Origin: Microbacterium aerolatum | GTDB taxonomy: Bacteria > Actinomycetota > Actinomycetes > Actinomycetales > Microbacteriaceae | Assembly: GCF_007988825.1 (NCBI RefSeq) | Contig: NZ_BJUW01000010.1 | Coordinates: forward strand, 1 to 64,000 | Length of the DNA: 64,000 bases | Direction: 5' to 3' | Shown here: positions 2,697 to 15,486 of the stretch, one piece after another | Position numbering within the stretch: the first letter of the stretch is position 1 | Layout of the letters: every line of letters starts with the position of its first letter | Notes under the pieces: generated by a model | What the model was told of the DNA's origin: nothing | The model's database searches: none | The model's input: the letters and a program-made list of their open reading frames with translations, nothing else | Made by a program: the position numbers and the translations under genes

Positions 2697-2753
2697 CGAG
2701 AGGGCAGTTCGGCACGGTGCGACGTGCGCGGACCGTGCGCAATTGCCCTCTCG
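2697..2753. repeat. Hairpin element family A, copy 1 (about 22-bp arms, 13-nt loop)
   Basis: The left arm 2697-2718 (CGAGAGGGCAGTTCGGCACG plus GT) pairs imperfectly with the right arm 2732-2753, leaving a 13-nt loop. The same arm sequence recurs at 3792-3850 and 15430-15486, and a diverged relative lies at 9038-9104. There is no T-run after it, so it may be a repetitive extragenic palindrome that also ends transcription. It fills most of the 154-bp gap between the small gene ending at 2678 and the next gene. Confidence 0.8.
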
Positions 2754-2832
2754 CTCAGAGGGCGTGAGACGGGGCGGGCACGTCTGTGGACAGTTTCTGC
2801 GGAGATGGCCTCGGCTGCTGGATGCTCTGTCC

Positions 2833-3771
2833 ATGACTGCGCGCCGACCCCTGCCGTACTTCCTGGCGAAGGGTGCGTTCGCGACTTCTCGCGCCGGCGA
2901 GCACGGAATCTCTCGGAGCAGAATGCGGGCCGCCGACCTGGAGACGCCGTTCCGCGGCGTGCGCTCGGCTGGGCTCGACCTCGGTGACCTCGTGCAGCGC
3001 TGCCGTGCCGCCGAAGTGTTCATGGATGACGGAGAGGCGTACAGCCACAGCACGGCGCTCCGGCTCTGGGGTGCGCCGCTGCCTGCACAGTTCGGTGCGG
3101 CGGGTGCCGCACTGCACATCGGCACGCCCGGTGCCACCCGCAGGCGGCGCGTCGGTGTCATCGGTCACAGGCTTGCTCCGGGCACGCCGATGCGTCTGAG
3201 TCCTGACGGACTCCGGACCGTTGCGCCCGCGACCGCGTGGTGCCAGTTCGCGTCGCAGCGCGATGATCTCTCGGACGACGAGATGCTCGTGGCGCTGGTC
3301 GCGGTCGCCGACTGCCTCATCACCGGACGTCGCACAAAGGGCATCCGGGGTGATCCGGCGTGCACACCCGAGGAGATGCGCGCCGCCGTGATAGCCCACG
3401 GCTCCGGTCGGGGTGCGCGGATGCTCGCAGCGGCACTCTTACTCATGCGCGTCGGTGTCGACTCGCCGAAGGAGACCGAGTTGCGACTGCTGCTGCACAG
3501 GGCCGGGGTCGCCGAACCCACGATCGGTCATATCATCCCGACCCGTCTCGGACCCCTCACACCCGACCTGGCCTACCCCGCCAAACGTGTGCTGATCGAG
3601 TACGAGGGCGACGCGCATCGAGAGAATCGGCGGCGATGGCGCGGCGACTTCGAACGGGTGCGGGCGTTCCAGCAGGCGGGATGGACGGTGATCCGGGTGA
3701 ACGCCGATGACCTCACTGACGAGGCGCGTCGCAATGCGCTCATCGCGCAGCTGCGGCTGCTGCTCGCCTGA
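2833..3771 (+). CDS. DUF559 / Vsr-like endonuclease-fold protein with AbiEi-like N-terminal region
   Basis: The product has 312 residues if the ATG at 2833 is used; an upstream in-frame ATG at 2743 lies inside the preceding hairpin and is unlikely. The C-terminal 60 residues form a very-short-patch-repair-type nuclease core: DLAYP, then EYEGDAHR (residues 256-263), then D..R...F...GWTVIRV. This places the acidic residues and lysine-equivalent region of the PD-(D/E)XK fold. The first 200 residues resemble the winged-helix plus linker arrangement of actinobacterial proteins often labelled AbiEi-like antitoxin (GEAYSHSTALRLWGAPLP). No partner toxin or methylase gene adjoins it. It is bracketed by two family A hairpins. 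The substrate is unknown. Family membership is fairly sure; nuclease activity is inferred. Confidence 0.8.
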   Translation: MTARRPLPYFLAKGAFATSRAGEHGISRSRMRAADLETPFRGVRSAGLDLGDLVQRCRAAEVFMDDGEAYSHSTALRLWGAPLPAQFGAAGAALHIGTPGATRRRRVGVIGHRLAPGTPMRLSPDGLRTVAPATAWCQFASQRDDLSDDEMLVALVAVADCLITGRRTKGIRGDPACTPEEMRAAVIAHGSGRGARMLAAALLLMRVGVDSPKETELRLLLHRAGVAEPTIGHIIPTRLGPLTPDLAYPAKRVLIEYEGDAHRENRRRWRGDFERVRAFQQAGWTVIRVNADDLTDEARRNALIAQLRLLLA

Positions 3772-3791
3772 GCTCGGTGCCCTGGAATGCG

Positions 3792-3850
3792 CCGAGAGGG
3801 CGATTCAGCACGGTGCAGAACGCAACGACCGTGCCGAATCGCCCTCTCGG
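3792..3850. repeat. Hairpin element family A, copy 2, between convergent genes
   Basis: Arms 3792-3814 and 3828-3850 match at all but one of 23 positions, with a 13-nt loop. The core arm is CGAGAGGGCGATTC followed by an (A/G)GCACGGT end. It lies between the convergent stops at 3771 and 3875, so it could act as a bidirectional terminator. The sequence identity to copies 1 and 3 is more than a terminator needs. Confidence 0.85.
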
Positions 3851-9037: not shown

Positions 9038-9104
9038 CGAGACGGGCTTTGCAGCACGAGACGGCGGCTGCCAGCACCCGTCTCGTGCGGCAAACCCCGT
9101 CTCG
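9038..9104. repeat. Hairpin element related to family A (27-bp arms, 13-nt loop)
   Basis: The left arm 9038-9064 (CGAGACGGGCTTTGCAGCAC and on) pairs with the right arm 9078-9104 with two mismatches around a 13-nt loop. The arm shares the CGAGA..GGGC..TT..AGCACG skeleton and the loop length of the family A elements at 2697, 3792 and 15430. It lies between the convergent stops at 9022 and 9129, and probably also terminates both transcripts. Confidence 0.75.
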
Positions 9105-15429: not shown

Positions 15430-15486
15430 CGAGAGGGCGGTTCGGCACAGTGTCGGGGGTGGGCACCGTGCTCAAGCGCCCTTTCG
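15430..15486. repeat. Hairpin element family A, copy 3, inside the hut operon
   Basis: Arms 15430-15452 and 15464-15486 form an imperfect 23-bp stem with an 11-nt loop. The left arm CGAGAGGGCGGTTCGGCACA matches copies 1 and 2. It lies in the 91-bp gap between hutU and hutI, so it could attenuate or process the operon transcript. Confidence 0.8.

Follow-up and report, generated by a model that had tools for sequence, protein, structure and literature searches.

A nuclease gene bracketed by its own palindromes in Microbacterium aerolatum: a probable REP/RAYT-like selfish element with an unrelated enzyme

Dispersed palindromes with a dedicated enzyme have previously been known for the RAYT transposases. 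These are IS200/IS605-related tyrosine transposases, and the REPs associated with them are 20-40 bp long, often GTAG-tagged, and inverted around the RAYT gene. According to the parts of PMC7319586 drawn on here, antitoxins of the AbiEi family recognise paired inverted repeats that precede the antitoxin genes; the AbiEi-like protein Rv2827c binds paired 23-bp inverted repeats with a 13-bp gap, i.e. 59 bp in all, and AbiEi itself binds repeats 3 bp apart. The homing endonuclease I-Bth0305I, as presented in the portion of PMC3943268 used here, acts as a dimer on a target of nearly 60 bp.

We analysed a stretch of 64,000 nucleotides from Microbacterium aerolatum (contig NZ_BJUW01000010.1, positions 1 to 64,000; hereafter the window), in which a nuclease-type gene lies between two palindromes of one family. 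Followed through the genus and the order, the pattern has the look of a self-spreading genetic element of a type not yet described. No comparable system was found in the open-access literature, most subscription papers lying outside that search.

The window unit and its predicted protein

The initial annotation had described a DUF559/Vsr-fold gene between two hairpins with common arms and 13-nt loops, and a solo copy of the same hairpin within the hut genes. Gene and hairpins were all recovered at the coordinates it gave:

2697..2753, + strand: left cognate palindrome, with 22-nt arms and a 13-nt spacer, 80 nt before the nuclease start
2833..3771, + strand: nuclease gene, 312 aa, predicted AbiEi-like half plus Vsr/EDxHD-type nuclease domain
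2836..3450, + strand: AbiEi-like part, residues 2-206; top fold match AbiEi antitoxin 6y8q (Z 10.2)
3463..3768, + strand: nuclease domain, residues 211-312; fold matches I-Bth0305I 3r3p (Z 9.2) and Vsr 1cw0 (Z 7.3)
3792..3850, + strand: right cognate palindrome, between the convergent nuclease and mscL genes
15430..15486, + strand: solo copy of the window palindrome family, between hutU and hutI

Upstream of the nuclease gene lie a helicase-like gene and then a 66-aa frame, and downstream the convergent mscL gene. The helicase-like gene (146-2488) has a C-terminal MTES_1575-type nuclease domain of its own, a weak Pfam match under the cut-off. No AbiEii toxin gene was recognised beside the window nuclease, in a scan of the window unit that left out the 66-aa frame. 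The palindromes have stable predicted folds and match no Rfam family, the single window match at the gathering threshold being a tRNA.

The hairpin at 9038-9104, given by the initial annotation as a diverged relative, does exist (67 nt). It has 33-nt arms, lies between two convergent genes, is longer than the window family and scores 28 bits against the family model; it was not among the whole-genome model matches, the first stage of that search being able to miss weak ones. It may be a member of another palindrome family.

An AlphaFold2 model was computed for the window protein with 22 homologues in the alignment (mean pLDDT 88.7). Residues 2-206 align with 6y8q at an rmsd of 6.5 over 179 residues (VIA-align), so that the fit of the whole domain is loose, and the same half matches 1zel with Z 6.7 (VIA-align). 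Residues 211-312 align with the I-Bth0305I catalytic domain at an rmsd of 3.0 over 96 residues (VIA-align). E214, D245, E256, H262 and D272 are invariant in 23 members, their correspondence to I-Bth0305I being one of residue types. Foldseek alone gave no match below E = 0.09 and ranked 3r3p first, and a sequence profile gave weak matches to 3hrl (E 0.0055) and 3r3p (E 0.15). In the window protein the Pfam DUF559 and MTES_1575 matches are weak, both below the curated cut-offs; among the 23 members DUF559 matches 17 and MTES_1575 matches 8. A PADLOC AbiEi model matches residues 13-155 of the window protein, and PADLOC AbiEi models match other members too. On the model, the two-part architecture of an AbiEi-like half and an EDxHD-type nuclease is predicted to be intact.

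Matched palindromes at related nuclease genes

The bracketing test was made without the window hairpin: any inverted repeat in the 300-bp flanks of a gene was taken, and left and right stems were compared, a match being a local score of at least 12. This threshold was chosen after viewing set 1 and kept unchanged for sets 2 and 3. Set 1 comprised 55 homologues from 24 genus genomes, of which 51 had both 300-bp flanks; hairpins were present on both sides in 23/51 and the stems matched in 18/51. Set 2 comprised named loci in GTDB genomes, after exclusion of six loci already in set 1 and of the short match L272; two of its 65 loci lacked flanks, and among the 63 scored, which contain the close pairs L248/L249 and L266/L269, 24 had matched left and right stems (Fisher p = 7e-12). 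Set 3 was order-wide, with two of 30 loci excluded (the window itself and G034a). Matched stems were found in 16 of its 28 loci, 13 of these 16 outside the genus, and every gene with hairpins on both sides (16/16) had matched stems. L334 of this set has the same protein and hairpin as L232 of set 2, so that 15/27 are new. Matched units are present in Rathayibacter, Plantibacter and Pseudoclavibacter records, and nuclease homologues in 95 of 119 order genomes; on plasmids only two distant matches were found, both in Arthrobacter, and in phage records one.

Control genes and gene contexts were obtained with a simple purpose-made gene caller, and gene names given without a family search are readings of the sequence. 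Matched stems were seen at 5/276 controls in set 1. All five were recognised afterwards as outer homologues of the nuclease family, which leaves 0/271, a remainder that may still include unmatched outer homologues. In set 2 the figure was 4/166, all four adjoining a nuclease gene, and in set 3 it was 0/28. Left and right hairpins taken from set-1 genes of different genomes matched in 12/490 pairings. Enrichment of the palindromes at DUF559 genes, which the initial annotation had set beforehand as a check, is thus borne out by matched brackets in three sets that are rare at controls, and chance bracketing is rejected on that scarcity. The association of these nuclease genes with palindromes of their own is near certain. 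Homologues without a matched pair (33/51, 39/63 and 12/28) may have lost it, or it may have decayed or escaped detection. The brackets of G013, G151 and G238, described below, are absent from the set-1 count, some of their hairpins being below the hairpin-finding threshold.

The stems differ from unit to unit. Across 60 matched units, the hairpin has a median length of 59 (quartiles 57-61) and the loop a median length of 13 (quartiles 7.75-17); the distance from the end of the left palindrome to the beginning of the protein match has a median of 84.5 bp, and the two palindromes are direct in 29 units, inverted in 7 and undecided in 24. The hairpin length agrees with the 23-13-23 repeat of Rv2827c and with the target of about 60 bp of I-Bth0305I. 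This agreement is a strong hint, short of proof, that two protein molecules recognise the palindrome in double-stranded form, each taking one arm.

The palindrome also changes with the protein. Covariation was computed on 58 of the 60 matched units, G092 and L226 being excluded for a stop or an unclear residue and the L232/L334 duplicate being included; the pairs are non-independent. In pairs below 70% identity, the more alike two nucleases are, the more alike their hairpins (rho 0.24, with 0/2000 permutations as high); when the two parts of the protein are taken separately in the same pairs, the AbiEi half shows the stronger correlation (rho 0.28) and the nuclease half the weaker (0.15). The trend below 60% identity was reached by 1/2000 and 1/1000 permutations; below 50% identity the covariation was not significant (165/2000 and 99/1000 permutations). 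Among pairs for which no homologous neighbour was found, a comparison spanning flanks of about 1.5-2.5 kb, related hairpins occur in 24/49 at 60-70% identity, 25/247 at 50-60%, 5/131 at 40-50% and 14/1164 at 20-40%. Related nucleases at unrelated loci thus tend to keep related palindromes, which suggests that gene and palindromes travel together.

Three further observations were made at these loci. Firstly, L189, L192, L197, L199 and L201, outer AbiEi/DUF559 members that align weakly, are also bracketed by matched hairpins, mostly longer ones of 68-84 nt. Secondly, an identical 30-nt hairpin, GACCCCCGCCGAATCGGGTCGGCGGGGGTC, adjoins several nuclease genes (L244, L246, L254, L256, L257, L158 of G021b and L145 of G146b); it is perhaps the terminator of one conserved neighbour, and so marks a common insertion site. 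Thirdly, some bracketed nuclease genes look broken while their palindromes are still there (G146 C44 14524-15391, G243 C2 811147-812060 and G092 C1 1200833-1201740), the matches being split across two frames and G146 having a deletion.

Dispersed copies, empty sites and turnover

In the 3.23-Mb genome from which the window comes, the arm pattern CGAGAGGGCNNTTCNGCACGGT has five forward and five reverse matches at up to two mismatches, and a reversed-pattern control has none in either direction. They correspond to five copies, two bracketing and three solo; three of the five lie in the window, within 13 kb of each other, and the remaining two on contigs C1 and C2. A covariance model built from the five recovers them on both strands at 47-81 bits, a match by construction, and the next-best match in this genome scores 17.6 bits. 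Most arm columns are invariant between the copies and nearly all spacer columns variable; in a covariation test on these five sequences only, 190/500 shuffles attained the score. Gene calls made by eye place three of the five copies, including those on C1 and C2, between convergent genes.

Across 247 genus genomes the model has a match at E <= 0.1 in 53. Strong matches are confined to a few lineages, among them the sister genomes G121 (five copies) and G146 (six); bracketing at the window locus in G000, G121 and G146 is a single inherited case, not three. Related hairpins with different outer arms were found in G238/G243, G013, G014, G151 and G194, and in G013, G151 and G238/G243 some of them lie on both sides of a nuclease gene of this family, at loci with no relation to the window locus. 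In G013 the bracketed gene has an HTH gene and a lipoprotein gene as neighbours, and in G238 and G243 a kinase-like and an aroG-like gene (names read from the sequence); in G151 the neighbouring genes are a different set, and the hairpin on the right scores a weak 17 bits. The window nuclease is 30% identical to that of G013, 39% to that of G238 and 34% to that of G151, in local alignments over most of the length. G014 has related solo hairpins at 11 places, and the two nuclease homologues examined in that genome carry another stem or just one hairpin.

One G121 copy (contig C1, 2367054-2367114; L093 3055-3115) falls, in frame and stop-free, within an open frame of 1,105 codons whose flanks are not hut genes. 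We read this frame as hexosaminidase-like; the copy is an apparent intragenic insertion that the frame survives. Elsewhere two to four palindromes follow one another in tandem, with a period of about 80-112 bp, in arrays that resemble those of REPs:

L101 5325-5465 and 6604-6748: tandem arrays
L102 2830-3188: tandem array
L117 2957-3176: tandem array
L115 3128-3260: tandem array
L126 2899-3032: tandem array

The palindrome family of G021a is lineage-specific. G021 contains 17 of its hairpins, including the pair that flanks the nuclease gene, with 16 forward and 17 reverse arms in all; in 20/23 other genomes there is no match, and in 3/23 a single one-arm match with three mismatches. Context was inspected for 15 of the 17 hairpins: among the 13 solo copies, three lie between divergent, six between co-directional and four between convergent genes, and none lies in a called gene. 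Copies between divergent genes show that the palindromes are not simply terminators, and the prospect raised by the initial annotation, that copies would sit only at convergent gene ends, fell away with these contexts and with the G121 copy inside an open frame. The arms are conserved and the spacers variable in G021 as in the window genome, and covariation among 13 aligned G021 copies is weakly positive (5/500 shuffles), one pair being changed on both sides. All 17 hairpins (L277-L303) lie at 0.18-2.03 Mb of the 3.48-Mb contig C1 and none in its remainder, a clustering on about half of the chromosome that possibly reflects a link to replication or recent local spread.

Empty sites were sought in 78 genus genomes, 59 of which had any match, the flanks being taken as paired when there was a match on each side, on one contig, among the matches listed. 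In each of the 45 genomes with both flanks paired, the helicase-mscL interval lacks the entire window unit. In 19 of these the matches reach the site and leave a gap of 25-176 bp, where the window has 1,203-1,321 bp between the same points; in the other 26 the matches stop at a greater distance and the gap is 224-553 bp, as against at least 1,404 bp in the window. Eleven of the empty sites were read as sequence, and the one in G001 contains a different, ordinary-looking hairpin. Solo copies vary as well: one G021 copy is missing from six relatives, and the interval between a diacylglycerol-kinase-like gene and a lipoprotein gene holds a copy in G000 and G146 and none in G121; G121 has one beyond the lipoprotein gene instead, at a position that is empty in G000. 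Neither clean insertion boundaries nor a target-site duplication were found at the sites compared, the solo insertions carrying extra flanking bases, and since the ends are not clean no target-site duplication is claimed. Empty sites, which the initial annotation had asked for, exist for the whole unit and for solo copies, but their ends are not precise to the base.

Candidate mechanism and comparison with known systems

We consider it probable (about 0.66) that the window unit is a palindrome-linked nuclease element, selfish in the manner of REP/RAYT systems and based on an enzyme of another kind; the causal role of the nuclease in the spread is read from the pattern of matched bracketing, lineage-specific families with solo copies, empty sites and covariation. 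One unit would consist of a palindrome, the nuclease gene and a second palindrome. The palindrome, typically 57-61 bp, would most likely be targeted in double-stranded form by a pair of nuclease molecules, whose AbiEi-like halves would recognise the arms and whose EDxHD halves would cut the palindrome or DNA close to it. The whole unit could then be moved or copied when such cuts are repaired, or when palindromes recombine with each other, and solo palindromes would be left behind, analogous to the action proposed for RAYTs on REPs. Nuclease and palindrome would change together in each lineage, giving rise to lineage-specific families. Binding, cleavage and enzyme-driven spread are what we infer here.

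The palindromes might instead be operators, bound by the AbiEi-like half to repress its own gene, with the nuclease otherwise employed, for example in phage defence. The binding of AbiEi-family antitoxins to paired repeats upstream of their genes (PMC7319586, in the parts drawn on above), the position of the left palindrome close before the protein match and the PADLOC AbiEi matches of family members all speak for such a role, but it leaves unexplained the second, matched palindrome downstream, the solo copies between unrelated genes, including those at convergent ends, and the lineage-specific amplification to 17 copies, and we regard it as unlikely as a full account. Marginally less likely still is that another recombinase or host recombination moves the unit, the palindromes being its targets and the nuclease a passenger. 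Neither a transposition intermediate nor a target-site duplication was seen, and the prevalence of direct repeats around the gene would permit loss or gain by host recombination. Against this, matched brackets go with one protein family, with which the palindromes vary, and more so with its AbiEi half; hairpins were sought within 300 bp of the gene, which leaves no room for another sizeable gene; and RAYTs, the one transposase family searched for, are absent from the 24 genomes tested. Ordinary bidirectional terminators that bracket the gene by chance, the alternative put forward in the initial annotation, are refuted as the sole explanation and highly improbable despite the stable folds and the three convergent copies in the window genome, given the rarity of matched brackets at control genes, the divergent and co-directional G021 copies, the G121 copy in an open frame and the different hairpin in the G001 empty site; some copies may nevertheless act as terminators.

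If a nuclease-driven palindrome element is the right reading, it would be a second, unrelated solution to the pairing of dispersed palindromes with a dedicated enzyme, in a group whose 24 tested genomes have no RAYT. It would offer a function for many uncharacterised DUF559 proteins, account for the lineage-specific long palindromes of these genomes and provide dozens of natural protein-target pairs, of about 59 bp, from which targeting rules could be learned. We lean, with less assurance, towards a broader proposal: an order-wide selfish class in Actinobacteria, whose one-gene unit uses an AbiEi-type module as the targeting half of an EDxHD endonuclease, recognises a palindrome of about 59 bp (two arms of about 23 bp and a spacer of about 13 bp) and spreads it as a non-autonomous repeat, the target diversifying with its reading head.

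Each of the known systems shares part of this organisation. With the Vsr/DUF559 nucleases the window enzyme shares the nuclease fold and the DUF559 matches; Vsr acts at T-G mismatches, and nothing in these units points to mismatch repair. The AbiE type IV toxin-antitoxin systems resemble it in the fold of residues 2-206 and, through the 23-13-23 geometry that the consulted part of the literature gives for Rv2827c, in the target, but in the window unit no AbiEii toxin gene was recognised and a nuclease domain is fused instead, and the palindromes lie on both sides of the gene and are dispersed. I-Bth0305I, an EDxHD homing endonuclease, is similar in the fold of the catalytic domain, in having a target of about 60 bp, as far as the excerpted source describes it, and in the invariant E, D, E, H and D. 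Unlike that enzyme, the window protein has an AbiEi-like DNA-binding half, no intron was seen, and the gene lies between two palindromes, both intact, and does not interrupt a target.

The likeness to RAYT-REP systems, as far as the portions of PMC2817692 and PMC3733652 used here describe them, lies in a nuclease-type gene between two palindromes that are also dispersed in the genome, in the existence of several lineage-specific families and in the arrays. A gene flanked by two palindromes of a dispersed family was found here too, the dispersal applying to the window family, its model relatives and G021a, which the genome-wide copy counts cover. The enzymes differ, the window protein being an AbiEi-EDxHD fusion and not a tyrosine transposase. 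A search for the RAYT family PF01797 found it in 0/24 genomes (the same search was positive in 5/14 control genomes), and a RAYT is on this ground rejected as the mobiliser. The elements are also longer than REPs, at about 57-61 bp, and mostly direct where orientation could be decided, and no GTAG tag was seen at the ends of the 13 aligned G021 copies or of the five copies in the window genome. The link between nuclease and palindrome that the initial annotation had likened to RAYT-REP is therefore upheld in its bracketing and empty sites, with another enzyme and with movement as the inferred part: the transposase being absent, the orientation mostly direct and the tag not seen, the window unit is RAYT-REP-like and not a RAYT-REP element.
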